Part shown: positions 44,363 through 60,977 of the stretch, one piece after another | Layout of the letters: each line of letters starts with the position of its first letter | How positions within the stretch are numbered: position 1 is the stretch's first letter | Notes under the pieces: model-generated | Told to the model about the DNA's origin: nothing | Databases searched by the model: none | What the model saw: only the letters and a program-made list of their open reading frames with translations | Translations under genes and position numbers: made by a program | NCBI RefSeq assembly: GCF_004310325.1 | Contig: NZ_SIRT01000006.1 | Span: 62,001 to 126,000 of the forward strand | From: Hyunsoonleella flava | Lineage (GTDB): Bacteria; Bacteroidota; Bacteroidia; Flavobacteriales; Flavobacteriaceae | Direction of reading: 5' to 3' | Length of the DNA stretch: 64,000 nt

Positions 44363-44440
<78 letters not shown>

Positions 44441-44572
44441 AATAGAAGCTTTGGTTTTTGTAGAAAGTCTGCTTTCTTAAGAAAATCGAAGCTTTTATTT
44501 TTAAATAAAGCAAAGCTTTATTTGCAATGATTTTATAGGATTATCAAAATCCTGTCATCCTGTCATCAATTC

Positions 44573-44700: not shown

Positions 44701-44731
44701 TTTGGAATATTAAAAAATATCAATATATTTG
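44701..44731 (+). promoter_or_regulatory. Promoter of the PL6-PL17-kdgF operon
   Basis: TTTG (44701-44704), 19-nt spacer, TATATTTG (44724-44731): a full match to the Bacteroidota TTTG-N19-21-TANNTTTG promoter. The last bases of the -7 element are also the first bases of operator box 1. Confidence 0.75.
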
Positions 44732-44766
44732 GAAAACCAAATTGGTTAACCAGATTGGAAAACCAA
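44729..44766. promoter_or_regulatory. Operator array A: three 12-bp palindromes at 13-bp period
   Basis: Boxes TTGGAAAACCAA (44729-44740), TTGGTTAACCAG (44742-44753) and TTGGAAAACCAA (44755-44766). They fit the TTGGTnnACCAA type known for FadR-family GntR uronate regulators (UxuR/ExuR-like). The same array occurs before gntR and susC. The likely ligand is the GntR protein encoded at 50614. Confidence 0.8.
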
Positions 44767-44938
44767 ATAAAACTATCTGAACTAAATAATTTTTAAAAGG
44801 CAAATTTGATTTTTGGATTTACCTTTAGAGAGCTTCTCAAGGAATAATGTTTAGGTTTGTTTGATTTAGCTGAGTAAGAAGGTCTTTATCTCACATAAAG
44901 ACTTTCTTTTTATATTAACCATATTATTGAGTAATTGT

Positions 44939-47245
44939 ATGAAAAGAATTTTCTTTCTTGTTTTCGCTTTCGCTTTAGTTTCATGTAGTAAAATATCAAA
45001 GAATTCTGAGGTTATAGTTACAAATTTTTCTGAATTGAAGATATCGATCGAAAATGCCAGACCTGGTGATATTATAACCATGGCTAATGGGGTATGGAAA
45101 GATATTCAAATTATATTCAATGCGGAAGGCACAGAGCAAGCACCTATTATCTTAAAAGCGGAATCTCCTGGAAAAGTTTTCATAGAAGGCGTTTCAAATT
45201 TGAAATTTGGAGGAAAGTATTTAGTGGTAGACGGTTTGCACTTTAGAAATGGATTCTCTCCAGATAAAGCGGTTGTTGATTTTAGAGTTAATGATAGTAT
45301 TATAGCAAACCATTGTATATTCACTAACAGCGTAATTAAAGCTTTTAATAAGATGCAACGCGATGATGCCGACCATTGGATTCAGTTTTGGGGGAGACAT
45401 AATACGCTGAGTAACTGCTACATCTCAGGAAAGACCAATAGGGGGCCAACTATTAGGGTTTTTTTAAAGGGAAATGAACATATTTACAACGAACATAAAA
45501 TTTTAAATAATCATTTTGGACCAAGACCGCCGAAAGGAGGTGCTAGTGCGGAAACTATTCAAATAGGCGATAGTTCATCATCTATGTCGCCCAGTAGTAC
45601 ATTGGTAGCTAAAAATTTATTTGAAGAATGTAACGGTGAAGTTGAGATTATTTCTAGTAAAACCAATTTCAATGAGTTTAGAAATAATGTGTTTTATAAA
45701 AGCGAAGGGTCTCTGGTGACACGCCATGGTAATTACTCAGTTATAGATTCTAATTATTTTATTGGTGATGGTAAAAATGAAAATATAGGAGGTATTAGGA
45801 TTATAAACACAGGTCATAAAGTTACCAACAACTATTTCTATAATCTTAAGGGAAAGAATTTTAGAAGTCCTTTGGCTGTAATGAATGGTATTCCAAAATC
45901 ACCTTTAAATCGATATGGACAGGTAACCGATCTTGTATTGGCCTATAATACATATATAAACTGTGAGTCGCCATGGCAGTTTGGGGTTGGGGTTAACATC
46001 AATCAAAAAGAAGTTCTACCACTTTCAGAAATCCGCTCTGCTAGACCCAAAAGATGTATTGTGGCAAATAATCTGGTTTTTAATGAAATAGGTAACAAAT
46101 CAATAGTAGTAGAACACGACAAAGTAGATGGTGTCATTTTTAAAAATAACGTAGTTAATAAACGCGGTGTTGATTTTAAGGATTATGCAGGTATTAAGCT
46201 TTTAGACTTCCAATTAAAGCAAGTAACAGAACATATTTATTTGCCATCATCGAGTATAGAGATAGAGCCTTTTATAGGTTTTGAATTTGAGAATATTACC
46301 AAAGACCTTTTTGGAAATTCAAGAACTTCAACAAATGGTATTGGGGCAGTAGTAAATCAAAATGCCAATGCCCCCGACATTTTAGATAAATCCAATTATG
46401 GTCCTAGTTGGTATTCTGACGAGGCTAAATTGAGAGAATCTAAGACAATAAATGTTACAACAAATGAAAATCTTCAAAATAAAATTGATGAAGCTAAAAA
46501 TGGTGATATTCTAGTTTTAGAAGGAGGTTTATTTTCAATAAAAACATCTTTAAGCATTTCAAAGACTATTTATATCAAATCAAAAGAAGGTGAAAAAGCA
46601 ATTTTGAATTATTCTGGTGAGAAAAATACGCCTATGTTCCAATTAAACCCAAATGGGGTTTTGAGTTTAGACGGTGTAGTTTTGAAGGGCAGTGGATCGC
46701 AATACGCTTTTTCTTCATTAAAAGAAAACATGTATTCTCATTTTGAACTAAAAGTGTTTAATTGTGAAATCAGTGATTTTTATTATGCTTTGAAAGTTTA
46801 TAAGCAATCTTTTGCAGAACGAATTAGTTTTGAAAACACATCTATTTTAAACTGTGAAAATGGTCTGGAATTATCCGAAGAAACTAATGATAAAGGCGAT
46901 TATAATACCGAATATTTAACTGTAAAGAATTGCTATTTCAATAATGTAGAACAAAATGTTATTGACTACTATCGCGGTGGTTACGACGAGTCTACTGTTG
47001 GAGGTAATCTGGTTTTAACTAATAGTGAATTCACAAATTGTGGGGTGAAAGAAAAAAATGGAATTCTTATAAATACGAGGGGAATAATAAATGTTAATAT
47101 ATCTGATAACATTTTCAAGAATAACCCTGTAAAACTTGTTGCACTACTTTGGGGGGCTAAAAATAATTTTCATAGAAACAACGAGATTTCCAATTCAGGA
47201 GATATAGTTGTAGAACAAAATTTGAAATTAAAGGTTATTTATTAG
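44939..47245 (+). CDS. Alginate lyase, polysaccharide lyase family 6 (two-domain lipoprotein)
   Basis: Cleaves alginate by beta-elimination. ATG 44939 gives a lipoprotein signal (MKRIFFLVFAFALVSC) and 768 residues; a TTG 12 nt upstream is disfavoured. The N-terminal beta-helix (about 25-480) carries the PL6 calcium segment NGEVEIISSK, with Lys241 as Brønsted base and Arg262 in VTRHGN as acid; the 21-residue spacing equals that of characterised PL6 enzymes. A second beta-helix domain (about 500-768) follows, as in two-domain PL6 lyases. First gene of an operon with PL17 and kdgF. The lipid anchor places it on the cell surface or in the periplasm; preference for G-, M- or MG-blocks cannot be read. 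Confidence 0.93.
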   Translation: MKRIFFLVFAFALVSCSKISKNSEVIVTNFSELKISIENARPGDIITMANGVWKDIQIIFNAEGTEQAPIILKAESPGKVFIEGVSNLKFGGKYLVVDGLHFRNGFSPDKAVVDFRVNDSIIANHCIFTNSVIKAFNKMQRDDADHWIQFWGRHNTLSNCYISGKTNRGPTIRVFLKGNEHIYNEHKILNNHFGPRPPKGGASAETIQIGDSSSSMSPSSTLVAKNLFEECNGEVEIISSKTNFNEFRNNVFYKSEGSLVTRHGNYSVIDSNYFIGDGKNENIGGIRIINTGHKVTNNYFYNLKGKNFRSPLAVMNGIPKSPLNRYGQVTDLVLAYNTYINCESPWQFGVGVNINQKEVLPLSEIRSARPKRCIVANNLVFNEIGNKSIVVEHDKVDGVIFKNNVVNKRGVDFKDYAGIKLLDFQLKQVTEHIYLPSSSIEIEPFIGFEFENITKDLFGNSRTSTNGIGAVVNQNANAPDILDKSNYGPSWYSDEAKLRESKTINVTTNENLQNKIDEAKNGDILVLEGGLFSIKTSLSISKTIYIKSKEGEKAILNYSGEKNTPMFQLNPNGVLSLDGVVLKGSGSQYAFSSLKENMYSHFELKVFNCEISDFYYALKVYKQSFAERISFENTSILNCENGLELSEETNDKGDYNTEYLTVKNCYFNNVEQNVIDYYRGGYDESTVGGNLVLTNSEFTNCGVKEKNGILINTRGIINVNISDNIFKNNPVKLVALLWGAKNNFHRNNEISNSGDIVVEQNLKLKVIY

Positions 47246-47327
47246 CTTATTTTGGTACTATCAAACTAAGGGAAGACACGCTTTTAAGAGTTGTATTTGA
47301 ATACAGTATCTTAATAAAACTGGAACA

Positions 47328-49595
47328 ATGGCACTATATACAAAGTCAGGAATATTATTTTTATTGATGTTATTAGCATTTTCTTGTGATGAAAGTGATA
47401 GTAGTAAAAAGAATTTGAAATTAGCTTCCGAACGCCCAAGCTTAATTCTAACTTCAAAGGGTGTTGCTAATATCAGAGCAAATCTAGGAAGCATTCCACT
47501 TTTTGATAAGGCTCTAAAGAAAACTAAAGCTGAGGTAGATGCTGAAATAGAAAATGGTATTGAAGTGCCCATTCCTAAAGACTATTCTGGAGGCTACACG
47601 CACGAACAGCACAAAAAAAACTTTTTCGTGATGCAAAAAGCAGGTGCCTTGTATCAAATATTGGATGACGGAAAATATGCCAAGTTTGTAAAAGATATGC
47701 TTATACAATATGCCAAAATGTACCCAACGTTACCTGTTCATCCCAAACCACGATCTTATGCTAGGGGGAAATTATTTTGGCAATGCTTAAACGATTCTAA
47801 CTGGCTGGTTTACGCAAGTCAAGCTTATGACTGTATTTATGATTATTTATCTAGTGAAGAAAGAAACAAGCTTGAGACAGAATTGTTTAGGCCTTTTGCA
47901 GATTTTATTTCAAGGGGAAATCCTCAGTTTTTTAACCGTGTTCACAATCATAGTACATGGGGCAATGTTGCAGTGGGTATGATTGCTTTAGCAATGGATG
48001 ATGATAGTTTGTTGCAACGTGCGCTTTACGGTTTAAAAGATGTAAAGATGGATGCAAACATGAAGGACAATGATGGTGGCTTTATAAACAAAGATGGGAA
48101 AATAGGTTTTTTTGCAAATCTTGATGAACCGTTTTCTCCAGATGGTTATTTTACCGAAGGGCCTTATTATCAACGATACGCTTCCTATCCTTTTTTAATC
48201 TTTGCTCAGGCATTAGAAAACAAAAAGCCAGAATTAAGAGTATTGCAATACAAAGATAGTGTGCTTTTAAAAAGTGTGACCGCCTTAATTAATCTTTCAG
48301 ATGCTGATGGTGATTTCTTTTTGTTGAATGATGCGCAGAAAGGGATGTCATATTATTCCAGTGCTTTGGTTGCAGCTGTTGATATTGCCTACCATTTTGG
48401 AGGTAATAATCCTGAATTGTTAAGTATAGCGCAAAAGCAAGGAGAAGTAACATTGGATGACGCAGGTTTAGCAGTAGCTCTGGGCGTTAAAGAAGTTAAG
48501 GCAGAACCATTTATAAAGAAATCTATAGAACTATCTGACGGTCCGGAAGGCGATCAAGGCGCTGTTGGAATCATACGTAGTGGCGATTTGGAGTTGGTCT
48601 GTAAATATACCGCACATGGTTTAAGTCATGGGCATTATGATAAACTGTCATATTCATTATTTGATGAAGGCGATGAAGTGGTTCAAGATTATGGACTCGC
48701 TCGTTTTGTAAATATTGAACAAAAAGGAGGCGGTAATTATTTAAAGGAAAATAAAACTTGGGCGAAACAAACCATATCACATAATACCTTGGTTCAAAAT
48801 GAAACCTCTCATTTTAAAGGGAAGTATGATATTGGCAGTATGCATCATTCACAGCAATATCTTTTTAGTTGTGAGGATGAAAACCTTCAAGTGGTAAGTG
48901 CAAAAGAAGGCAATGCTTATCCAGGAACTGAATTGCATCGTACTATGGTGGTGATTAAGGATAAGGCATTTGAGAATCCTTATGTGTTGGATATCATGAG
49001 AGTAACATCCGATAGCTTCAATCAATACGATTTACCATTTTATTATTTAGGGCACATTATGCAGACTAGTTTTGAATACTCAAAATTAGCTACTCCAGAA
49101 ATTTTGGGAAGTAAAAATGGCTATCAACATTTGTATAAAGAAGCTGCAGCAACTACAGATGGAGTTAATATCAAATTAAATTGGTTGCTAAACAATAAGT
49201 TTTATACGTATTCTGCCGTAACATCTCCAAATGATGAGGTGATTCTTGCACGTATAGGGGCTAATGATCCTGAGTATAATTTAAGAAATGAACCAACTTT
49301 GATTCTTAGAAAAAAGAATGCCAAAGATGCTTTGTTTGTTTCTACTATAGAATCTCATGGTACTTATAGCCCAGTTTCTGAATCTGCAGTTAACGCTTAC
49401 GGTAATATCAAAACTATTTCTGTATTCTATAACTCTAAGGAATACACAGCTGTTCAAATTGAAATGAAAGACGAAACAAAAAAGCTATTCATTATTTCAA
49501 ATCAAAATAATGATAAGAATACAGAGCATGAATTAACAATAAACAATAAAGAGTATACCTGGAAAGGGCCTTATAAATTAATAGAAAACATATAA
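47328..49595 (+). CDS. Oligoalginate lyase, polysaccharide lyase family 17
   Basis: Exolytic lyase releasing unsaturated monouronate from alginate oligomers. The 755-residue lipoprotein (signal MALYTKSGILFLLMLLAFSC) has the alginate_lyase alpha/alpha-toroid (about 60-380) with the catalytic Asn-His pair in VHNHSTWGN (N207, H208) and a tyrosine-rich DGYFTEGPYYQRY (about 272-284), then a heparinase II/III-like beta domain (about 410-650; GLSHGHYDKLSYSLFDEGDE). It follows PL6 by 82 nt and precedes kdgF by 2 nt. PL6 and PL17 together give endo then exo breakdown. Confidence 0.95.
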   Translation: MALYTKSGILFLLMLLAFSCDESDSSKKNLKLASERPSLILTSKGVANIRANLGSIPLFDKALKKTKAEVDAEIENGIEVPIPKDYSGGYTHEQHKKNFFVMQKAGALYQILDDGKYAKFVKDMLIQYAKMYPTLPVHPKPRSYARGKLFWQCLNDSNWLVYASQAYDCIYDYLSSEERNKLETELFRPFADFISRGNPQFFNRVHNHSTWGNVAVGMIALAMDDDSLLQRALYGLKDVKMDANMKDNDGGFINKDGKIGFFANLDEPFSPDGYFTEGPYYQRYASYPFLIFAQALENKKPELRVLQYKDSVLLKSVTALINLSDADGDFFLLNDAQKGMSYYSSALVAAVDIAYHFGGNNPELLSIAQKQGEVTLDDAGLAVALGVKEVKAEPFIKKSIELSDGPEGDQGAVGIIRSGDLELVCKYTAHGLSHGHYDKLSYSLFDEGDEVVQDYGLARFVNIEQKGGGNYLKENKTWAKQTISHNTLVQNETSHFKGKYDIGSMHHSQQYLFSCEDENLQVVSAKEGNAYPGTELHRTMVVIKDKAFENPYVLDIMRVTSDSFNQYDLPFYYLGHIMQTSFEYSKLATPEILGSKNGYQHLYKEAAATTDGVNIKLNWLLNNKFYTYSAVTSPNDEVILARIGANDPEYNLRNEPTLILRKKNAKDALFVSTIESHGTYSPVSESAVNAYGNIKTISVFYNSKEYTAVQIEMKDETKKLFIISNQNNDKNTEHELTINNKEYTWKGPYKLIENI

Positions 49596-49597
49596 TT

Positions 49598-49975
49598 ATG
49601 AAACGATTCAGTGAAAAGTATATCATCACGAAAGACATGGAATGGGAAGAACTTGGTGGAGGTGTATCAAGAAAATTCTTAGGTTATGATAACCAAATCA
49701 TGATGGTAAAAGTAAAATTTGAAAAAGGAGCATTAGGGTCTCCACATCAGCATTTCCACACGCAAGCTACCTACTGCGTCTCCGGTAAATTCGAATTTGA
49801 AATTGATGGCGTTAAGCAAATTGTAGAAGCTGGAGATGGCGTGTATATTGAACCTAATTTGTTGCACAGTGCAATTTGTTTGGAACAAGGCATGCTAATT
49901 GACACATTTAGTCCAGTAAGGGAAGATTTTTTAAGCGGGGGCGGAGTGTCTTATTTTGGAGACAAAAACTCATAA
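49598..49975 (+). CDS. kdgF: KdgF-type cupin, unsaturated uronate to DEH/DKI conversion
   Basis: Small cupin of 125 residues that speeds ring opening of 4,5-unsaturated monouronates to the linear ketouronate (DEH from alginate). Metal ligands are seen in GSPHQHFHTQATY (H50, H52, Q56) and H90 in PNLLHSAI. Residues D102, F104 and R108 (DTFSPVR) match the catalytic positions I recall for characterised KdgF proteins. It starts 2 nt after the PL17 stop, so it is in the lyase operon. No signal peptide, so cytoplasmic. Confidence 0.93.
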   Translation: MKRFSEKYIITKDMEWEELGGGVSRKFLGYDNQIMMVKVKFEKGALGSPHQHFHTQATYCVSGKFEFEIDGVKQIVEAGDGVYIEPNLLHSAICLEQGMLIDTFSPVREDFLSGGGVSYFGDKNS

Positions 49976-50036
49976 AAAAGATAATTGCTCATCACAATAA
50001 GTTAGGTTTTAGTCTAACTTGAAATTCAAAAAAGGG

Positions 50037-50198
50037 ATGGAAAGAGTTATCAGTGTAATACTGGAGTTAAAAAACAAAATATCATGGGTTTATTGTTACT
50101 TAATGGTTATGGCTTTATCGTGTTCTAGTTCGCCAGATATTGTTGTAGAGCACCTAACAATGCAGATGCCTTCTCATGAGCAGGTTTTCAATGAATAA
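50037..50198 (+). pseudogene. Truncated lipoprotein gene fragment (53 codons)
   Basis: ATG 50037 to TAA 50196-50198. It encodes a basic N-terminal region, a hydrophobic segment WVYCYLMVMALSCSSSP with a clear lipobox (LSCS), then only about 23 residues. This is the start of an exported lipoprotein whose body is missing, so probably a deleted gene; a genuine small lipoprotein is the alternative. Confidence 0.5.
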
Positions 50199-50357
50199 TT
50201 GGTTTTTACAGGAAGAATTATAGGTTTAATTATGTGAAGACACCTTAAAAACAATGCAATTTAATCGATTATCTATTTCTTCTATATCATTACACTGCCT
50301 TTTTGTAAATACTGTAAATAGTTTAATCAGTTTTTACATCATAAAGTTCAAAATTAA

Positions 50358-50389
50358 TTTGTTTTAACAAAAAAATTAGCATACATTTG
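50358..50389 (+). promoter_or_regulatory. Promoter of gntR
   Basis: TTTG (50358-50361), 20-nt spacer, TACATTTG (50382-50389). The end of the -7 element coincides with the start of operator box 1 of array B. Confidence 0.7.
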
Positions 50390-50411
50390 GATAACCAATC
50401 TGGTTAACCAA
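50387..50411. promoter_or_regulatory. Operator array B: two 12-bp palindromes at 13-bp period
   Basis: Boxes TTGGATAACCAA (50387-50398) and CTGGTTAACCAA (50400-50411). Same type and phasing as arrays A and C, which points to autoregulation of the GntR gene 200 nt downstream. Confidence 0.8.
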
Positions 50412-50613
50412 TTTTTTGAAGGATAAGTTAATCGAGGTTTCATTGATACTGATCTAAGTGCTAACTGTACAGAAAATAAATTATTCTTTAAAAATAGATT
50501 TATTTTATTTTTAAAATGGGTTTTTCAATAAGATGGAATCAATATAAGTTACCGAGTTTTTTTGATTAAATTTATCGATTAGGATAGATCAAATAGTTCA
50601 AGGAAGAAAATAG

Positions 50614-51324
50614 ATGAAATTAGAATCATTAATAGTAAGTGATAGTCAAAAAGTACAAAACGGAATAATCTCAAAGATTAAAGAGTTAATAAATTATAAA
50701 AATCTCGAGCCTGGAGATAAATTACCTTCTGAGAGAATGTTATCTGAGAGATTTGGTGTAAGTAGAGGGAATGTTAGGGAAGCGATTCAAAAGCTAGAGT
50801 TCTATGGTCTACTAAAATCTATTCCTCAAAGCGGAACTTTTGTTGCCAATATTGGTGTTGTTGCAATGAACGGAATGATTGACGATATTTTAAGACTGGA
50901 TTCACCTGATTTTAAATCTTTGGTTGAAACTAGAATTTTATTGGAGCTTAAAGCGGTAAAGTTGGCTTCTTTAAGGCGAACAGAAGAGTATTTAAAACAT
51001 ATAAAAGAAACACTTGATGCTTACGAGCAAAAAGTATTGTCTGGTGAGGATGCTGTACAGGAAGATTTACTTTTTCATTTGGCAATTGCCAAAGCAAGTG
51101 GGAATAGTACCTTGAATACTTTTATGTTAACCATTACACCGCAAATCATAATAGATTTCGGAAAGTATCATGTTTGTGATAAGAACCAAGCTGTTTTAGC
51201 TATTGAAGAACATAAGCAAATTTATCAGGCCATAAAAGCTCAAAACCCAGACTTAGCTAAACAAAAAATGAAGGAACATTTTAATGTACTTTATCAATAT
51301 TGTTATAATAGTAAATCGGTATAA
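50614..51324 (+). CDS. FadR/GntR-family transcriptional regulator (FCD domain)
   Basis: Regulator of 236 residues. The N-terminal winged helix (about 8-78; PGDKLPSERMLSERFGVSRG, VREAIQKLEFYGLLKSIPQSGTFV) is of FadR type, and the C-terminal FCD effector domain (about 95-230) carries the metal-binding His residues in DLLFHLAIA, IEEHKQIY and MKEHFNVLY. Proteins of this family bind TTGGTnnACCAA-type palindromes, and such boxes lie at 44729, 50387 and 60940. Because they overlap -7 elements, it should act as a repressor released by an alginate breakdown product (probably DEH or KDG; inferred). Confidence 0.93.
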   Translation: MKLESLIVSDSQKVQNGIISKIKELINYKNLEPGDKLPSERMLSERFGVSRGNVREAIQKLEFYGLLKSIPQSGTFVANIGVVAMNGMIDDILRLDSPDFKSLVETRILLELKAVKLASLRRTEEYLKHIKETLDAYEQKVLSGEDAVQEDLLFHLAIAKASGNSTLNTFMLTITPQIIIDFGKYHVCDKNQAVLAIEEHKQIYQAIKAQNPDLAKQKMKEHFNVLYQYCYNSKSV

Positions 51325-51499
51325 ATTTAGTTGAAAAATAGATTATTAGCTTTTATTTTTTAGCTTAAAAACTTTTGGAAGGAAGGAACTATTCAAACTA
51401 AGGTTTCTTCAAAATCATATAATTGAAATATTACTAATGTACTTATTTACAGGATCATATGTGGTTCTGGAAGCATTGTATTGAAAAAACTGAAGCATT

Positions 51500-52786
51500 A
51501 TGAAACTAAAAGGATTGAGATGGTGGATAATTGGGTTAATATTTTTAGCAACAGTCATCAACTATATTGATAGAAGTGCATTGTCAATCATGTGGGGAAA
51601 TGAAAACCTCGAAGGTTCAATATCAAATTCATTGGGAATGGATAAGAACGATTATGGTTTAATACTAAATATTTTTATGGTGGCCTATGCTCTAGGGCAA
51701 TTGTTTTCGGGAAAAATATTTGATAAAGTGGGGACCCGCATAGGATATGTCTTAAGTATAGGTATATGGAGTTTGTCAACACTATTACATGCAACGGTTA
51801 GAGGTTTTTATTCATTAGCGTTTTTTAGAACCACATTAGGCTTGTCTGAAGCTGGAAATTGGCCTGGTGCTGTAAAAAGTAATGCGGAATGGTTTCCAAT
51901 AAAAGAACGGGCAATAGCCCAAGGATTGTTTAATGCAGGTGCTTCAATTGGTTCGGTGATAGCTCCACTTTTAATAGCTACATTGTTTGTAGCATATGGG
52001 TGGGAAATTACATTTGTTATCGTTGGCGCAATGGGGCTTTTATGGATAATACCTTGGCTTTTAATCAATAAATCAGGGCCAAAAAAGCATCCTTGGATTA
52101 CAAGTACTGAGCAAGAATTTATACTGGCTGGACAAAGTGAGGCTGACCAAAATGCTACTGAGGAGACCAAGGGGAAAAGCCTAAAACAGATTTTGTCTTA
52201 CAAAGAATCTTGGTCCATAGTTGTTAGCAGGTTTTTCCTTGAACCTATATGGTGGTTGTTCGTCGGCTGGATGCCTATATACTTATTTGATGTATATGGC
52301 TTTAACGTAAAGGAGGTTGGTATGTTTGCATGGGTACCCTATGTTGGAGCTGCCTTAGGAAGTATAATTGGAGGTTATGTTTCTGGGGCAATTATCTCTA
52401 AAACAGGTTCCATCGATAAAGGAAGAAAAACTACAATTCTAATTGGAGGCATTTTGATGGTGGCTGGTTTAGTAGCAACGGTACTATTTGGTGATACTGC
52501 TGAAAAGTTTGTGGGTATTGTATTTGTAGTGCTATTTGGTTTTCAGTTTGCCATCGGAAATGTGCAAACACTACCAAGTGATTTGTTTAGTGGGAAATCT
52601 GTAGGTTCATTAGCAGGCTTAGGAGGGATGATAGGAGTATTCTCCGTAATTATAATGAACTTTTTAGTTCCAATAGTAGTTGATAATTTTTCATATACAC
52701 CAATATTTATTGCCATTGCAATATTTGTTCCTCTTGGTGTTGGCGCGATATATTTCTTTGCGAAAAACATTAAGTCAGTAGAGTAA
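51500..52786 (+). CDS. MFS transporter, hexuronate/anion:cation symporter type
   Basis: Inner-membrane permease of 428 residues with 12 predicted helices, similar to ExuT/ACS-family uronate carriers (NYIDRSALSIMWG at about 20-32, GLSEAGNWPGAVKSNAEWFP at about 114-133, a family signature). In this locus it most likely imports unsaturated monouronate or DEH from the periplasm. It is 175 nt after gntR and 36 nt before the reductase gene. Confidence 0.92.
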   Translation: MKLKGLRWWIIGLIFLATVINYIDRSALSIMWGNENLEGSISNSLGMDKNDYGLILNIFMVAYALGQLFSGKIFDKVGTRIGYVLSIGIWSLSTLLHATVRGFYSLAFFRTTLGLSEAGNWPGAVKSNAEWFPIKERAIAQGLFNAGASIGSVIAPLLIATLFVAYGWEITFVIVGAMGLLWIIPWLLINKSGPKKHPWITSTEQEFILAGQSEADQNATEETKGKSLKQILSYKESWSIVVSRFFLEPIWWLFVGWMPIYLFDVYGFNVKEVGMFAWVPYVGAALGSIIGGYVSGAIISKTGSIDKGRKTTILIGGILMVAGLVATVLFGDTAEKFVGIVFVVLFGFQFAIGNVQTLPSDLFSGKSVGSLAGLGGMIGVFSVIIMNFLVPIVVDNFSYTPIFIAIAIFVPLGVGAIYFFAKNIKSVE

Positions 52787-52822
52787 TAAAGTAATAAGAA
52801 CAAGTAATAAAAATTAAAGAAC

Positions 52823-53587
52823 ATGAGTAATTTAAAAGATAGAGTAGCGGTAATTACTGGAGCTACCGGTGGAATTGGTTTTCAAGTAGCCAAAAGACTT
52901 GGAGAAGACGGTTATACAGTAGTTTTAAATGGTATTGATGATGATGCAGGAGCAGATAGAATTAAACAACTAACAGCAGCCGGAATTACAGCAGAATATT
53001 ATGGGTTTGATGTTACAAATGAAGATGAGGTAAACTCAAACATCAATAAAATAGGCGAAAAGTATGGTAAGATAGATGTGCTTATCAATAACGCTGGTGG
53101 CTTAGGCGGAAGGTCTAGATTTGAAGATATGACCACCGAATTTTACAGGTTTGTTATGGCATTAAATTTAGATTCAACATTTTTTGCATCAAGAGCGGCT
53201 ATACCTTTCCTTAAAAAAAGTGACAAGGCATCCATTATAAACTATACATCTATAGCAGGTTGGAATGCAGGGGGCCCAGGAGCGGGTATTTACGGCACAT
53301 CAAAAGCAGCAGTACATGCTATTACTAGGGCTTTGGCGAAAGATCTTGCCGAATACGGGATTAGGGTTAATGCAGTATCTCCTGGTACAATTGATACAAA
53401 ATTCCATGCTCAAATTAAATCTACCAAACCAGAAGTATTTGCTTCATGGAAAAATAATATTCTCCTAGGAAGGTTAGGGCAACCAGAAGAAGTAGCATCT
53501 GTTATTTCATTCTTGGTTAGCGATGATGCTGCATTCTTAACTGCCGAAACTATACAAGTTGGTGGCGGACAAGGTTTAGGGATTTAA
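52823..53587 (+). CDS. SDR oxidoreductase, probable DEH reductase
   Basis: Short-chain dehydrogenase of 254 residues: cofactor motif TGATGGIGFQVAKRLG (about 13-28), NNAGG (about 89-93), catalytic Ser in YTSIAG (about 141) and YGTSK (about 154-158). By position between a uronate transporter and KDG kinase, it should reduce DEH to 2-keto-3-deoxygluconate. NADH or NADPH preference is not certain. Other SDR substrates cannot be excluded by sequence alone. Confidence 0.9.
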   Translation: MSNLKDRVAVITGATGGIGFQVAKRLGEDGYTVVLNGIDDDAGADRIKQLTAAGITAEYYGFDVTNEDEVNSNINKIGEKYGKIDVLINNAGGLGGRSRFEDMTTEFYRFVMALNLDSTFFASRAAIPFLKKSDKASIINYTSIAGWNAGGPGAGIYGTSKAAVHAITRALAKDLAEYGIRVNAVSPGTIDTKFHAQIKSTKPEVFASWKNNILLGRLGQPEEVASVISFLVSDDAAFLTAETIQVGGGQGLGI

Positions 53588-53725
53588 AATGATGTAATGG
53601 TATATTCTTTTTCAAACCATCTTTTGCTGAACAGTTTCTCTTAGATGAAGTTTTAATAGAAAGCTACTTAAACCATATTTTAAGAAATAGCATTGTTGGA
53701 TTTTAAAAAATTCATCACACTCAAT

Positions 53726-54733
53726 ATGGAAACAAAGAAAATTGTAACGTTTGGAGAAGTTATGATGAGGTTATCACCTCCAGGTTATGCCAAGTTTTCT
53801 CAGGCGACATCTTTGGATATTGACTATGGTGGAGGTGAAGCAAACGTTGCCATAGCATTGGCTTACATGGGGATGAAGGCGTGCCATGTCACACGGCTGC
53901 CAGATAATCTTGTTGGTAAATCAGCAACACAATACTTAAGGCAACATTGGATAGACACGGACCATATATTGTATGGCGATACCAGAATGGGTCTATATTT
54001 CTTAGAAAAGGGAGCTGTTCATCGTTCTAGTGAAGTTGTTTACGAAAGAGAAGACTCTGCATTTTCAAAAATAGAACCAGAGATGATTCATTGGGAAGAT
54101 ATTTTGGAGGGTGCAGATTGGTTTCATTGGACGGGAATTACGCCAGCAATTTCTAGAGGTGCCGCTAGGGCCTGTTTAAGGGCTATTCAAGTAGCAAATT
54201 TTATGGGAATTATGGTTTCTGGCAATATCCATTCACGAAAAAGTTTATGGAAATACGGTTTGTCAAAACAAGATATAATTCCTGATTTAGTTTCAGGTTC
54301 CAACGTAGTAATTGCCAGTACTTATGACATGTATAATATTTTTGGAATTGGAAAACCAGAAGCGGATTTTGAAACAAGTGCAAAAACCCTACAAGAAACA
54401 TTCCCTTTAATACAAAAAGTTGTGGATAAGGACAGGGAAGTATTAAGTGCTTCTCATAACCGAATTAAGGGAAAAATGTGGAATGGCAGTGAATTGCTTA
54501 CAACCCCGTTCTATGACGTTACACATGTTATAGATCGTGTAGGTACGGGAGATGCCTACGCAGCAGGATTGATTTATGGGTTGGTTAACCATAAAGAAGA
54601 TGAAGTAGCATTAAAATTTGGAGCTGCTGCATGTGCATTGAAGCATACAGTTGAAGGGGATGCAAATATGGTCTCCAATCAAGAAGTAACAAGATTAGTA
54701 GAAGGTAACGGTTTAGGCGAAATTAAAAGGTAG
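53726..54733 (+). CDS. kdgK: 2-keto-3-deoxygluconate kinase (PfkB family)
   Basis: Phosphorylates KDG to KDPG. ATG 53726 gives 335 residues starting METKKIVTFGEVMMRLSPPG, the family start; a TTG 33 nt earlier is less likely. It has the substrate region DYGGGEANVAIALAYMG (about 36-52) and the PfkB C-terminal signature DRVGTGDAYAAGLIYGLV (about 270-287) with the catalytic Asp. It ends the catabolic run; KDPG aldolase, the next enzyme, is not found in the window. Confidence 0.92.
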   Translation: METKKIVTFGEVMMRLSPPGYAKFSQATSLDIDYGGGEANVAIALAYMGMKACHVTRLPDNLVGKSATQYLRQHWIDTDHILYGDTRMGLYFLEKGAVHRSSEVVYEREDSAFSKIEPEMIHWEDILEGADWFHWTGITPAISRGAARACLRAIQVANFMGIMVSGNIHSRKSLWKYGLSKQDIIPDLVSGSNVVIASTYDMYNIFGIGKPEADFETSAKTLQETFPLIQKVVDKDREVLSASHNRIKGKMWNGSELLTTPFYDVTHVIDRVGTGDAYAAGLIYGLVNHKEDEVALKFGAAACALKHTVEGDANMVSNQEVTRLVEGNGLGEIKR

Positions 54734-54888
54734 AGAGCCACTTCAGCTCATGTTATAAAGATTAAATCTAATATGGTTCTACCTTTCTAAACTACTTTTT
54801 GAACTATTGTACAACCAACTTTGTACATTTTATCACCTTCATAAAGCTATCTTTAAGCATTAAATGAAATTGACAATTACTTACAAGG

Positions 54889-56556
54889 ATGAAATATATT
54901 AGGCGTTATAATATTTTACAGTTTGTTTTAATCTTTTTTTGTAGTTGTTTAGTGGGGTGGTCTCAAGAACTTCCAAACATACTTCAAAGTAAATCAATAA
55001 GTGATAACAACTATTTACCAGATTTCAGTTATGCGGGTTATCATAATGGGGAAAAAGAAATCCCAGAATTCATAGGTACTATTATAGATGCATCAAATTA
55101 TGGAGTGGTAGCTAATGACGGTTTAGATGATACAAAGGCTTTAAAAAAAGCCATTGAAGAATCTAATAATATCAAAGGCAAAGTAACTTTGCAATTGCCA
55201 AAAGGCAGATTGATTTTAAGTGATATTTTATATTTACAGCGGAGTAACTTTGTTTTGCGAGGAACTGGAACTGGCGCAGGAGGAACTGAAATATATTGTC
55301 CAAGGCCTTTGATGTATGCAAAAGACCCTGAAGTTTTACAGGAATTAAGAGAGTATCTGATAAAATTTGATAAGCGTCAAGTTGAAGAAGAGCATAATAT
55401 AGACTTACCGTTTTCCCAATATGCATGGTCTGGAGGTTTTATATGGACTAAAGTGCCAAAAGTTAGGGTAAAATCTTATTTGCCAAAATATGAACTACCT
55501 TATGATGTTCTCGCCAAAGTGTCTATGGGAAAACGTGGAGCGTTAAATTTTCAAGTTTCTGATGCTAAGAACTTAAAAATTGGAGATATAGTTGAACTAC
55601 AGCTTTTTAATAAATTAGGAGAGCATGCCGAAATAATTAATGCTCTTTATAAAAAACAAGATGTAAAAGTAGGCTCTCATCATTGGAATTTTCCGGATTT
55701 ACCATTGGTAAAACAACAGGTTGTTATTACCAATATAATTGGCAATAAGGTATTTATTAATAGTCCATTAACTATTGATGTACTGCCAAGTTATAAAGCG
55801 CAATTAGTGGTATGGAAGCATCTTGAGGAAGTAGGTATAGAACATTTAAGAATTTCTTTTCCTAAATCCCCAAGAATTGCACATCATGTGGAGCAAGGTT
55901 ATAACGGTATTTATTTAACACGTGTTTTTAATAGTTGGGTGAAAAATGTAGTAATCGATAATGCCGATAGTGGAATTTTAAGCGAAGAAATAGCCAATGT
56001 GTCTATTGTAGATATCACAACTACAGGAGAGAATATCGCTCATTATACTGTTGCTATGTCTGGCACTTATAACGTATTAGGAGAGGGTATAAAAGTATAT
56101 AACAAAGCTGTACACCCTTTAAGCTTTAATACGTTATCTACCAAGAGTGTTTATTTGGATTGTGAGGTGTTTGCAGATCCTATTTTGGATCAGCACTCGG
56201 GAGCAAATCACCAAAATTTATTTGACAATATTACAGTCCATTTAACACCTCTCCAAGATGGAAGTTATCCACTTTTTGAAGGAGGAGGAGCAGGCTATTG
56301 GAAACCTTCTCATGGCGCTTACAGCGTATTTTGGAATATACAGGCTAAACTAATTGAGGGACTTGATTCTAAAGAACCTGTACTTTTAAATGGTATGAAA
56401 GATGGCCCTTTTGCTAGAGTGATAGGTGTTAACGGCAATCATAGCTTTAGGGTTGAATATGAACCTATGGCACATATAGAGTTTATAAATACATCTATGG
56501 ACTACATACCTTCACTCTATGAATATCAGCTGAAAAAAAGGTTAAATAGTAATTGA
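54889..56556 (+). CDS. Secreted pectate-lyase-like beta-helix protein of unknown specificity
   Basis: Exported protein of 555 residues: signal peptide ending VGWSQ (about 25), then an N-terminal Pectate_lyase_3/GH28-related start (DASNYGVVANDGLDDTKALKKAIEE, about 67-91), beta-helix repeats (about 320-480; GIYLTRVFNSWVKNVVIDNA) and a histidine-containing stretch DQHSGANHQNLFDN. It is not PL6, PL7 or PL17. Sitting between kdgK and a hybrid sensor in an alginate locus, it may be an uncharacterised polysaccharide lyase or hydrolase. Catalytic residues could not be assigned. Confidence 0.75.
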   Translation: MKYIRRYNILQFVLIFFCSCLVGWSQELPNILQSKSISDNNYLPDFSYAGYHNGEKEIPEFIGTIIDASNYGVVANDGLDDTKALKKAIEESNNIKGKVTLQLPKGRLILSDILYLQRSNFVLRGTGTGAGGTEIYCPRPLMYAKDPEVLQELREYLIKFDKRQVEEEHNIDLPFSQYAWSGGFIWTKVPKVRVKSYLPKYELPYDVLAKVSMGKRGALNFQVSDAKNLKIGDIVELQLFNKLGEHAEIINALYKKQDVKVGSHHWNFPDLPLVKQQVVITNIIGNKVFINSPLTIDVLPSYKAQLVVWKHLEEVGIEHLRISFPKSPRIAHHVEQGYNGIYLTRVFNSWVKNVVIDNADSGILSEEIANVSIVDITTTGENIAHYTVAMSGTYNVLGEGIKVYNKAVHPLSFNTLSTKSVYLDCEVFADPILDQHSGANHQNLFDNITVHLTPLQDGSYPLFEGGGAGYWKPSHGAYSVFWNIQAKLIEGLDSKEPVLLNGMKDGPFARVIGVNGNHSFRVEYEPMAHIEFINTSMDYIPSLYEYQLKKRLNSN

Positions 56557-56608
56557 TTTATCAATTTTCTCTTCAATCTTAATTATATTTACGAGATACA
56601 CAAACAGA

Positions 56609-59600
56609 ATGTATTTAATGTTTAGGCATCTTGTTTTTTTATTGTTTTTTAGCATTTATTCTACGAGTTTTCCCCAAACTTCGCCATCATTTAGTTTTTC
56701 ACATTTAACCACACTTGATGGGTTATCGCAAAGCACTGTTATAGCAATACATCAAGATAGAATCGGACAAATATGGATTGGTACCCGTGATGGTTTAAAT
56801 AAATATGATGGTACTAAATTCACTATCTATAGAAATGTAGAAGGTAACCCCAAATCTATAAGTAATAATGATATCCTATCTATCGAAGAAGATAGGGAAG
56901 GGTTTTTGTGGATAGGCACATATAATGGGTTAAATAAGTACAACCCAAAAACCGATGAGTTTGAAAGATTATTTCATAATGAAAAAAAAACGTCGTTGGT
57001 TGACAATACTATTTGGACGATACGAACACTTTCAACTGGTGAAATTTGGGCTGGTACTTCAGGAGGTCTATCAATTTACAATAACAAAACAAATACATTT
57101 ACCACCTTCTTAGATACAGCCTCCCGACCTATTGAAAAGCAAGTGATTTCAATTTTAGAAAGTTCAGACGGAAATATATTTGTAGGAACAGGAGCTGGTG
57201 TTTACAAAGTTTCTGGCTCTCAGGAATCTAGAAATTTCAAACTTATAGAAGGTACCGAGAAGCTGTATGTCCAAGATTTACAAGAAGATAGCAACGGCGA
57301 TATTCTAATAGCCACAAGAAGCAAAAGTGTATTGAAATATGATAGGAATCAGCAGACTATAGTGCCGTATTTAAAAGTGGATACAAAAGATTTAAATAGT
57401 AATAACGTAAGACAATTGCTTTTTGATGATAAAATGAATCTTTGGGTGGGTACCTATAACGGTTTAAAAATTGTAGATAAAAATATGTCTGTAACAACCA
57501 TAAAGGCAGATGTTGATAAAACAAACGCATTGAGTAAAAATTCAGTAAAATGTTTATTCAAAGATGGAAAAGGGTCTATTTGGGTTGGAACGTATTATGG
57601 AGGGGTTAATATTTGGGATGAAACAAATGTGAATTTTAAAAAGATTACTCAAAATCGAAAAGGTAAGGGATTAAACTATTCCGTAGTAAGTTCAATAGAA
57701 AAATTCGAAGATCGTTTCTTTTTCGGCACTGAGGGTGGTGGTGTAAACATATGGGATAAAAACCAGAATACATATCAATATCTCACTAGAAGTAATTCCA
57801 AATTATCAGATGATAATATAAAAGCATTGCATGTTGAAGGAGATAAGCTTTGGATTGGAACTTTTAAGAGTGGTTTGAATATCTATAGTCTAAAATTAAA
57901 ACGATTCATTAATGAATCATTACCATCCACATTAATGCAGCTTACGGAGAATACTGGCGTTTATGCTATTGTAACGGATGTGTCAAGTAATATTTGGATA
58001 GGTACTTTTGGTAAGGGTTTGTTTAAATTTAATTTGAAGTCAAAGGACTTTCAGAAATATGCCAATTTAGGAGAAGGTGCTTCATTATCTAGTAATTTAG
58101 TCAGAACAATCTGTGCAGATTTGAACAACAATATTTGGGTGGGTACCGAAAAGGGCCTAAATAAAATTGATGATCAAGGGCACATATCTACTTATTTTTA
58201 TGATAAGAACTTACAATACGGTGACGATATTCCATGTGTTTACGAAGATCGTTCCAAAAACTTATGGGTAGGCACAAAATCTAAAGGGCTCTTTAAATAT
58301 GATGGTACTGCTTTTAGCCCAATAAGCCTAAGACCGGGAGAAATTAAAATTTCAACCGTACATAGTATCCTCGAAGGAGAAGACAATCATTTATGGATAA
58401 GCACTAACCAAGGCTTAATTGAATATGATTATAAACAAAAAACTACGCAAATATATAACCAAACAGATGGGTTGATAACCAATGAATTTAATAATAACTC
58501 CAGTTTCAGAACAGATGATTCACAACTTTATTTTGGCGGACCTCTTGGTGTGTCTTATTTCAATCCGAAAACACTAACTAAAAACACATACGCCCCCCAA
58601 GTAATATTAACCGATTTTACGGTCAGGGAAAATGATGTAAGCCCTAACAGTTCTGGTACGGTTTTGGAAAATGCAATGCCTTATACAAAATCGGTAAACT
58701 TATCTCACAGCCAAGGTAACTTTAGTATTTCATTTTCTATACCAAATTTTATCAACTCGAGTAATAACAAATATAGATATAGACTTAAAGGTTTAGAAAA
58801 AGACTGGAATTTAACAACTAGCAATACCGCATCATACACAATTCAAAATCCGGGTAACTATACATTTGAGGTAAAAGGTGCGAACAACGATAATGTATGG
58901 AATATCGATACAACTTCGTTGGATATCTACGTTGCGCCAGCACCCTGGAGAACGTGGTGGGCATTTACTTTATATGGTCTATTAATTTTTGGAGCACTTT
59001 ATTTTCTTTTGAACATTTTAAAATCTCGAACAAAATTAAAAAACGATTTACAATTAGAGCATCTTGAAACCGAAAGAACAAAAGAGATTAATAAAACCAA
59101 ATTAGACTTTTTCACCAATATTTCACATGAGTTTAGAACACCATTAGCCTTAATTTTAGGACCTCTTAAGCAAATTATAGAAGACTATCAAGGAAGCAGT
59201 AAAATGTATAAAAAACTCTTGGTTATAGAAAACAACGCTAGCCATTTATTACAGCTTATTAATAGGTTGATGGATTTTAGAAAATTTGAAAGCCATCTTT
59301 ACAAATTAGAAGCGGCAGAGGGAAATATCGTCAAGTTTTTAAAGGAAATTTTCTTGTCGTTCACTGAGAATGCAGAAAACGAAGATTATAATTTTGAATT
59401 TATATGTGATGAAGAGGAGATTCTGGTGTATTATGACCGGTATAAGTTAGAACGTGTATTTTTTAACTTAATATCAAATGCCTTTAGATATACACCAAGC
59501 GGTGGAGATATCACGGTTAGGGTTAAAAAATCTACCGAGAATGTGACCATAAGTGTTGAAGACTCTGGGGTTGGGATAGCAAAAGAATATCAAGACAAAA

Positions 59601-60670
59601 TATTTGAACGCTTTTTTGAGGTCGCAGTAAATAATAAACCAGATAGAGATTATAATAAAGGTACAGGTATAGGTTTGTCCATAGCGAAAAGTATTGTTGA
59701 ATTGCATAAAGGCAGAATAGTAGTATGTGAAAATGTTAAGAATGGAGGGTCTATATTTTCTGTAATCTTGAGAATAGGTAATGCGCATCTTGAAGCTTCT
59801 GAAATTTTGAAGAACTTTAAGTTTAGTGATGATGTTTCACAGTATGTAAATCAAATAAAAGATGTGACGCCAGCAATTCATGATGAGCTTGAATTGACTG
59901 CTGATTCCCAGAAATCCACTATTTTATTAGTAGAGGACAATAAACAATTAAGAAAGTTTATTCGAGACTTGTTGATATCAAACTATAATATCATCGAGGC
60001 AGAAAACGGAAAAGTAGCCCTAAAGAAGGCCAAGAATAAATTACCAGACTTGATAGTTAGTGATGTTATCATGCCTGAGATGACTGGGACTGAATTGTGT
60101 TCTGCGCTAAAAGGCGGGTTAAAAACAAGTCATATTCCTGTGATACTATTAACTTCTAGGTCGTCCTTAATTTATAAGGTAGATGGGTTAGAGCATGGAG
60201 CTGACGATTATATTAGCAAACCTTTTGATATAAATGAGTTTAAGCTTAGGATAAAAAACTTACTTAAAGCAAGGGAAACATTACAACAAAAGTTTGCGTC
60301 TAATGATAGACTAGAACCAAATGATATTTTGCTGTCTTCCTATGACGAAACACTGTATAAAAAAGCGTTACAGATTGTTAACGAAAATATAGGTAATGAA
60401 GATTTTGATATTACTTTTTTCTGTTCAGAATTAGGGGTGAGTAGAACCATGTTATTCACGAAAATAAAGGCATGGTCTAATTTTACACCCAACGAGTTCA
60501 TTGTACATTTTAGGATGAAACGCGCTGCCCAACTTTTGGAGCAAGGAAAAGTTAATATATCCCAAGTAAGCTATAAGGTTGGGTATAAGGATCCAAAGTA
60601 TTTTAGTAAATCTTTTCAAAAGAAATTTGGGGAGACACCTTCAAAATATGCTGAAAAATTCTCTGAATAA
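56609..60670 (+). CDS. Hybrid two-component system sensor/regulator (HTCS)
   Basis: One-protein sensor and DNA-binding regulator of 1353 residues. Order: signal (about 1-23), two periplasmic seven-bladed propellers of Reg_prop repeats (about 30-700; repeated IWIGTRDGLNKY), Y_Y_Y domain (about 700-785), membrane helix (about 790-812), HisKA with NISHEFRTPLALILGP (His about 844), HATPase (about 950-1065; GTGIGLSIAKSIVELH), receiver (about 1110-1225; Asp about 1152 in SDVIMPEM) and AraC-type HTH (about 1255-1350; VSYKVGYKDPKYFSKSF). HTCS proteins bind oligosaccharides and activate PUL genes. The partner genes are probably the beta-helix gene and susC beside it. Confidence 0.95.
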   Translation: MYLMFRHLVFLLFFSIYSTSFPQTSPSFSFSHLTTLDGLSQSTVIAIHQDRIGQIWIGTRDGLNKYDGTKFTIYRNVEGNPKSISNNDILSIEEDREGFLWIGTYNGLNKYNPKTDEFERLFHNEKKTSLVDNTIWTIRTLSTGEIWAGTSGGLSIYNNKTNTFTTFLDTASRPIEKQVISILESSDGNIFVGTGAGVYKVSGSQESRNFKLIEGTEKLYVQDLQEDSNGDILIATRSKSVLKYDRNQQTIVPYLKVDTKDLNSNNVRQLLFDDKMNLWVGTYNGLKIVDKNMSVTTIKADVDKTNALSKNSVKCLFKDGKGSIWVGTYYGGVNIWDETNVNFKKITQNRKGKGLNYSVVSSIEKFEDRFFFGTEGGGVNIWDKNQNTYQYLTRSNSKLSDDNIKALHVEGDKLWIGTFKSGLNIYSLKLKRFINESLPSTLMQLTENTGVYAIVTDVSSNIWIGTFGKGLFKFNLKSKDFQKYANLGEGASLSSNLVRTICADLNNNIWVGTEKGLNKIDDQGHISTYFYDKNLQYGDDIPCVYEDRSKNLWVGTKSKGLFKYDGTAFSPISLRPGEIKISTVHSILEGEDNHLWISTNQGLIEYDYKQKTTQIYNQTDGLITNEFNNNSSFRTDDSQLYFGGPLGVSYFNPKTLTKNTYAPQVILTDFTVRENDVSPNSSGTVLENAMPYTKSVNLSHSQGNFSISFSIPNFINSSNNKYRYRLKGLEKDWNLTTSNTASYTIQNPGNYTFEVKGANNDNVWNIDTTSLDIYVAPAPWRTWWAFTLYGLLIFGALYFLLNILKSRTKLKNDLQLEHLETERTKEINKTKLDFFTNISHEFRTPLALILGPLKQIIEDYQGSSKMYKKLLVIENNASHLLQLINRLMDFRKFESHLYKLEAAEGNIVKFLKEIFLSFTENAENEDYNFEFICDEEEILVYYDRYKLERVFFNLISNAFRYTPSGGDITVRVKKSTENVTISVEDSGVGIAKEYQDKIFERFFEVAVNNKPDRDYNKGTGIGLSIAKSIVELHKGRIVVCENVKNGGSIFSVILRIGNAHLEASEILKNFKFSDDVSQYVNQIKDVTPAIHDELELTADSQKSTILLVEDNKQLRKFIRDLLISNYNIIEAENGKVALKKAKNKLPDLIVSDVIMPEMTGTELCSALKGGLKTSHIPVILLTSRSSLIYKVDGLEHGADDYISKPFDINEFKLRIKNLLKARETLQQKFASNDRLEPNDILLSSYDETLYKKALQIVNENIGNEDFDITFFCSELGVSRTMLFTKIKAWSNFTPNEFIVHFRMKRAAQLLEQGKVNISQVSYKVGYKDPKYFSKSFQKKFGETPSKYAEKFSE

Positions 60671-60772
60671 ACAAAAACCCCTGTATTTTAAATATTTAAA
60701 AATCAGGTAATTGTATTATTTTACTCCTTCTTTTGTACTTCTACAATATTTTATTTTTCTAATTTTATTATA

Positions 60773-60865
60773 ATGAAAAATGCGAACTTTAAAACTAGAT
60801 ACGTCGAGATTATTCTAATGCTAGTGATAGTCGTATTCAGTTTGGTAATTATTTATTTTACGTGA
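60773..60865 (+). CDS. Candidate 30-residue single-pass membrane peptide
   Basis: ATG 60773 to TGA 60863-60865. The peptide has a basic start (MKNANFKTRYVE) and a continuous hydrophobic stretch IILMLVIVVFSLVIIYF, a typical small membrane protein plan. It is too short for normal gene calling. No strong ribosome-binding site or promoter was identified, so it may be chance. Confidence 0.35.
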   Translation: MKNANFKTRYVEIILMLVIVVFSLVIIYFT

Positions 60866-60934
60866 TTAATAACAATACACATTTTTTGAATAAGTAATTT
60901 TTAACTTTTTATTATGAAGTTAAAAATATTTGAT

Positions 60935-60942
60935 TATATTTG
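60935..60942 (+). promoter_or_regulatory. -7 promoter element of susC
   Basis: TATATTTG; its last bases begin operator box 1 of array C, as at the other two sites. No good -33 TTTG was found, so activation by another regulator (such as the HTCS) may be needed. Confidence 0.6.
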
Positions 60943-60977
60943 GTGAACCAAATTGGTTTACCAGTCTGGTTCACCAA
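60940..60977. promoter_or_regulatory. Operator array C: three 12-bp palindromes at 13-bp period
   Basis: Boxes TTGGTGAACCAA (60940-60951), TTGGTTTACCAG (60953-60964) and CTGGTTCACCAA (60966-60977). Same consensus and phasing as arrays A and B, placing susC under the GntR regulator. Confidence 0.8.

Follow-up and report, generated by a model that had tools for sequence, protein, structure and literature searches.

Tandem operator arrays at an alginate locus of Hyunsoonleella flava, probably read by an AusR-type GntR/FCD repressor

The window, i.e. the whole stretch of 64,000 nucleotides that was analysed, carries a set of genes whose content fits an alginate locus. The arrays, promoter elements and protein-coding genes described here for the window lie on the forward strand, and positions are window coordinates. 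Array 1 of short palindromic boxes (44729–44766) is followed by genes for a PL6-type alginate lyase (44927–47245; Pfam Chondroitinas_B, nearest solved chain AlyGC), a PL17-type oligoalginate lyase (47328–49595; profile match, with a family name that is partly our assumption) and a cupin protein (49598–49975), which was recognised as a cupin by profile and is presumably KdgF-like, judging from its position. Array 2 (50387–50411) is followed by the gene for a GntR/FCD regulator (50614–51324), an MFS transporter (51500–52786; profile match), an SDR protein (52823–53587) and a PfkB sugar kinase (53693–54733), and then by genes for a beta-helix lyase-like protein (54889–56556) and a hybrid two-component sensor (56609–60670). 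The SDR protein was assigned to its family by profile and is a probable DEH reductase by position and pathway knowledge. The kinase is a probable KDG kinase, with scores below the curated NCBIfam cut-offs. The beta-helix protein gave a weak match to the BT3328 family and no PDB sequence match at E 0.01; the sensor comprises Reg_prop, Y_Y_Y, HisKA, HATPase, receiver and AraC-type HTH domains. Array 3 (60940–60977) precedes the gene for a SusC-type TonB-dependent receptor (SusC1; 61091–64000), which continues past the end of the window and is followed outside it by genes for SusD, a GH88-like protein and a GH2 protein. PDB searches with the SusD and SDR sequences returned general relatives or none. 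Directly upstream of the alginate genes, a tRNA-Pro(GGG) gene is located (44363–44438); 14 bases close to its 3' end (44421–44434) recur without change 126 bp downstream (44547–44560), a layout that resembles an integration site. Beyond the window (L145:10633-13045), another GntR-type regulator, distinct from the first, is encoded beside a PF05426 Alginate_lyase gene (strong match) and another SusC/D pair.

The regulator encoded at 50614 (236 aa), classed as AusR-type by alignment, consists of an N-terminal GntR winged helix (Pfam, 65.8 bits) and a C-terminal FCD domain (89.7 bits), with both scores over the cut-off. Residues D151, H155, H200 and H222 were invariant in 23 sequences and are spaced like the FCD metal site, which we take to be formed by one Asp and three His. 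The predicted structure (mean pLDDT 80.1, pTM 0.60) had GntR-type regulators as its best PDB matches in Foldseek, with a TM-score of about 0.5 and an uncertain domain orientation, and because of this uncertainty the model was not used for arguments on dimer contacts.

An earlier note, made from the letters of the window, had described arrays of three, two and three 12-bp palindromes before the PL6, gntR and susC genes, and all eight TTGGnnnnCCAA-type boxes were confirmed, at 44729, 44742 and 44755 (array 1), 50387 and 50400 (array 2) and 60940, 60953 and 60966 (array 3). Within each array, neighbouring boxes start 13 bp apart. When both strands of the window were scanned with YTGGNNNACCAR, 17 matches were obtained, compared to 1.84 expected and a maximum of 7 in 100 shuffles; these correspond to 11 distinct sites, namely the eight array boxes and three isolated ones (22876, 54348 and 63328). 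The isolated boxes were rejected as operators because they are solitary, outside the arrays, and their count fits chance. The remark that such boxes were not noticed elsewhere in the window was thus borne out for arrays, but not strictly for single boxes. Across the genome (3.81 Mb), exact matches to the tandem pattern were confined to the three window arrays, and the reversed pattern, serving as a control, had no match; three additional weak sites appeared when two mismatches were allowed. The motif scan of the genome, proposed beforehand, therefore gave no equal arrays at unrelated genes. Scanning for single boxes yielded 62 matches (array boxes included) versus 36 for the reversed pattern, a modest excess near background, and the search for further regulon members among them was dropped.

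At all three window arrays, box 1 is fused to a -7 promoter element of the form TAnnTTTG. Upstream of the PL6 gene, an exact -33/-7 type promoter, TTTG-N19-TATATTTG, extends from 44701 to 44731, and its -7 element (44724–44731) runs into box 1 of array 1. The corresponding elements are TACATTTG at array 2 (50382–50389) and TATATTTG at array 3 (60935–60942), with an exact -33 TTTG at 19 bp present at array 1 only. The complete pattern TTTG-N19-TAnnTTTG had two exact matches in the window, array 1 being one of them, and 28 matches with one mismatch versus 22 by chance, i.e. no enrichment. The sequence TANNTTTGGNNNNCCAR was found at 18 sites in the genome, 14 of them inside ORFs of at least 150 aa, and three of the four sites outside such ORFs were the window arrays, each with an ORF behind it; the fourth lacked an ORF of at least 150 aa within 600 bp behind. 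For Flavobacterium psychrophilum, the available text of a start-site mapping study gives a sigma-A box TAnnTTTG at -12 to -5 (PMC9723704), and -33/-7 promoters were predicted earlier before two alginate operons of Flavobacterium sp. UMI-01, according to the part of that source at hand (PMC4306948). If the F. psychrophilum spacing applies, box 1 would cover -7 to +5, while box 2 would extend from +7 to +18 and box 3 from +20 to +31, an arrangement that fits a repressor. The open-licence literature, in the parts accessible and with the original AusR description outside its scope, yielded no mention of the 13-bp pitch or the -7 fusion.

Conservation was followed in two sets of sequences. In a survey of 100 genomes in which each genus of the family was represented at most once and the window's own genome was included, the GntR was counted as present at E 1e-40 or better. 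It was found in 25 genomes, all of which carry at least two tandem-box matches, whereas one or two such matches occurred in 9 of the 75 genomes without it. One site was inspected in each of seven of these nine genomes; none was a flanked box and six were inside ORFs, so that the tandem boxes appeared chance-like in the seven genomes inspected. The second set comprised 80 named loci, the best 80 of at least 519 confirmed relatives, and contained 103 arrays (60 double, 43 triple) in 76 of the loci. While this list of arrays is fixed at the 13-bp pitch by construction, a count free of that restriction gave 190 box pairs within 80 bp, of which 189 were spaced by 13 bp (146) or 26 bp (43) and one otherwise; five control half-site patterns produced 0 to 11 pairs. 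Arrays were absent in L068, L122 and L135, where only 0.4 to 2.7 kb of upstream sequence was available, and in L076, with 10 kb. In 52 of the 80 loci, the 120 bp ahead of the regulator gene contained one box or more.

The fusion to the promoter element was conserved as well. TAnnTTTG was joined to box 1 in 93 of the 103 arrays and to the opposite array end in two; the nearest ORF lay on the fused strand in all but one of the 93, and none of the 103 arrays was located inside an ORF of at least 150 aa. After exclusion of two arrays that started less than 60 bp from the locus start, 91 of 101 had the full element, seven an element one base shorter and three neither. Arrays before PL17 genes in L094, L129, L130, L133 and L140 follow TATATTG, one base short of TAnnTTTG, which resembles, without equalling, the shorter SM5 motif in the available text of PMC9723704. 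Among 19 arrays listed in three Zobellia-like genomes, eight were read and all eight were fused to TAnnTTTG, as were five of six read among nine listed for two genomes from the same genus as the window. The conservation of the arrays in orthologous alginate loci, on which the earlier proposal depended, was therefore strong. Homologues of the regulator in other families (47–55% identity, seven loci) had box pairs at 13, 14, 15, 16 and 22 bp in five loci and no close pair in two. Because these distant homologues keep the box with a varied pitch and family members at 51 and 54% identity (L034 and L033) still keep 13 bp, the data, albeit in small numbers, suggest that the fixed pitch is a trait of the clade and not of the box itself.

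To describe the genes behind the arrays, 101 arrays of the 80 loci were typed by the next recognised gene. A susC-type gene followed in 76 cases, which are not independent counts because many are orthologous; the other 25 arrays stood before PL17, PL6 or regulator genes or before genes unrecognised by BLAST. Ten first genes, a selection comprising those of four of the nine unrecognised arrays in named loci and of six of nine distant array regions, were compared with Pfam and included two PL6-type, five PL7-type and one PF14099 lyase; the two without a lyase match encode a protein with a T9SS sorting tail (L177) and one with a lamin-tail domain. Arrays unlinked to the main locus thus stand before alginate-lyase-type genes as well. 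As for the three remaining distant regions, BLAST served to type L170, an ORF within 1 kb was lacking in L175, and L176 stayed unannotated; the first genes of L091, L114, L124, L137 and L140 were left out of the Pfam comparison. In L091, L114, L124, L137 and L177, the gene immediately after a double array encodes a similar protein of about 310 aa, the similarity being judged by eye from the first 50 residues. By the Pfam results and this resemblance, lyases dominate among these first genes, with an uncharacterised secreted protein also recurrent. The sole PL7 (Alginate_lyase2) gene found in the window's genome (G000:C63:47158-47958) was rejected as a regulon member because the TGGN4CCA box is absent in the 3.8 kb around it. 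For the same reason, it may be expressed without AusR control, and its product could be a sentry-type enzyme, as which AlyA7 is described in the available part of PMC8286568.

The position of array 2 directly before the regulator gene differs from that in relatives. The segment 50191–50414 aligns to L065:807-1030 of Hyunsoonleella pacifica, covering the first two of the three boxes that precede the canonical susC there, and 50559–50640 aligns to L065:9946-10027, a stretch that begins immediately ahead of the regulator gene and reaches into it; the intervening 50415–50558 had no match to L065. Approximately 8.9 kb of L065, with susC, susD, three further ORFs and the third box, are without a counterpart in the window. 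Upstream of array 2, a gene remnant that ends in a stop codon (50099–50200) is 89% identical to L065:4-105 (tblastn, 74% over 35 residues), and its counterpart in H. pacifica stands before the susC array. Compared by distance, the regulator gene in two further genomes of the genus has its nearest upstream array in the same orientation at 8.9 and 9.0 kb, as against about 0.2 kb in the window. A close copy of the canonical SusC was not found in the window's genome, where the best full-length match had 33% and partial matches up to 46% identity. Judged by these alignments, array 2 is most likely the relic of a deletion that removed the canonical alginate susC and susD, which separate array and regulator in relatives, and thereby came to stand directly before the regulator gene. 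Since the regulator gene in relatives is downstream of the same array and in the same direction, it may once have shared that operon.

The AusR regulon was reportedly first described by Dudek et al. in 2020 in NAR. One genome of our comparison (G001) was placed as Zobellia-like by a PL7 enzyme 96% identical to chain 4be3_A, which we take to be from Zobellia galactanivorans. Its single regulator homologue, which serves here in place of the AusR sequence, is 66% identical to the window's protein, and its arrays are double and triple at 13 bp; boxes of the same type also occur in two further Zobellia-like genomes (G527 and G677). These two each carry two regulator copies (63–67% identity), in agreement with the duplication noted for this genus in the accessible part of PMC8073546. 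As far as the sources available in part go, AusR of Z. galactanivorans is a GntR-type protein that represses most alginate genes (PMC8286568, PMC8073546) and binds single, double or triple operator copies (PMC7874173), and the GntR regulon put forward in the earlier note agrees with it. The likeness lies in a GntR gene in the alginate locus and one to three operator copies (3, 2 and 3 in the window), with the operators compared by description only. Given the 66% homologue and the fused double and triple arrays of the Zobellia-like genome, the system is AusR-type; the arrays belong to an already described control system rather than to a new one, and the eight boxes are, by sequence comparison, almost certainly landing sites of a repressor of the AusR kind. 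Unlike the AusR system, the window lacks the canonical susC/susD, has its regulator gene immediately after the array found ahead of susC in a relative and has only three operons marked by arrays.

As to how the arrays might act, the best model is NanR of E. coli, a GntR-type repressor that, in the available text of PMC8012715, binds three repeats cooperatively as three dimers and is weakened in its binding by an effector, although it recognises GGTATA direct repeats rather than palindromes and responds to sialic acid. The regulator at 50614 also scored far below the NCBIfam cut-off for NanR (115.4 of 260 bits). UxuR and ExuR of E. coli, which regulate uronate use, are likewise GntR/FCD proteins, and their sites resemble TTGGT-ACCAA. 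The regulator stayed far below both of their NCBIfam cut-offs as well (66.5 of 442 and 56.7 of 396 bits), and we know of no 13-bp arrays for these proteins.

With a probability of about 0.9, we consider the arrays to be operators for the product of the gene at 50614, an AusR-type GntR/FCD repressor, including the origin of array 2 by deletion. The -7 element is overlapped by box 1, and the one or two boxes that follow at 13 and 26 bp would cover the transcription start and the earliest transcribed bases. With dimers sitting next to each other on these boxes, the promoter would be blocked until an intermediate of uronate breakdown, the presumed inducer, releases them. Binding, cooperativity, inducer and start sites are what we infer within this explanation, and the link between the GntR and the box is drawn from co-occurrence and position. 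That this protein would be the controller of the array operons, as suggested in the earlier note, is supported by the conservation of the arrays, their co-occurrence with the regulator and published work on AusR. A different regulator might read the boxes, with the GntR at 50614 a bystander, since the hybrid two-component sensor (56609) and the second GntR beyond the window lie in the same neighbourhood; we regard this as highly improbable, because the arrays follow the type of the GntR at 50614 (25/25 genomes versus 9/75 without it, the latter chance-like where inspected), whereas within the stretches fetched for the best 80 of at least 519 loci a hybrid-sensor match was found in L065 only and matches of the second GntR type in four (L075, L079, L084 and L093). 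The sensor could, for its part, be the main switch of the operon behind array 3. Some regulators of such folds activate transcription, and activation of the targets instead of repression was weighed too. It seems very unlikely, given that box 1 sits on the -7 element with the other boxes downstream of it, where bound protein should block the polymerase, and that AusR is described as a repressor in the part of PMC8286568 available.

The glycan served by array 3 is a separate matter, which concerns the substrate only and is compatible with the boxes being AusR-type operators. SusC1 is only about 30–40% identical to the canonical alginate SusC, and the GH88-like and GH2 genes and the hybrid sensor beside it point to another uronic-acid glycan. 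Furthermore, L065 of H. pacifica carries both SusC types, each behind a triple array, and in another genome (G044, L170) the SusC1 unit with hybrid sensor and array is located on a different contig from the GntR. Array 3 may thus serve a second polyuronide system, consisting of SusC/D, GH88-like and GH2 proteins and its own hybrid sensor, to which the AusR boxes would add a second gate. On the other hand, Maribacter L101, Joostella L120 and Tamlana L093 have a SusC of the SusC1 type at the canonical position, i.e. between the array and the AusR gene. Together with the lack of a close canonical SusC in the window's genome (33% full-length, up to 46% partial), this indicates that SusC1 may be an alginate porter. 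We see even odds for the second polyuronide system and rate the two roles of SusC1, alginate porter and porter of another glycan, as about equally probable. As for control of uptake by the regulator, a third array does stand before susC, but the SusC/D proteins are not the canonical alginate pair, and alginate uptake is plausible, yet unproven. Sensors related to the 56609 protein were also seen beside the SusC1 unit in H. pacifica (L065) and in L170.

At 10.5 bp per turn, sites 13 bp apart are displaced by about a quarter turn. Whether AusR-family operators follow a geometric code, with box 1 fused to the -7 element, boxes stacked at exactly 13 bp and copy number setting the strength of the repressor complex, is a question on which we are evenly divided; dimer-dimer contacts would make the pitch clade-specific, and the deletion would have put a susC-type promoter before the regulator gene. 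The signature TAnnTTTGG with a second box 13 bp further on should make it possible to list likely AusR-controlled genes in marine flavobacteria by sequence alone, lyase genes remote from the main locus among them. Owing to the rigid pitch, cooperative binding of such repressors can be tested directly, and the probable deletion illustrates how the setting of an autoregulatory loop can change in one step.
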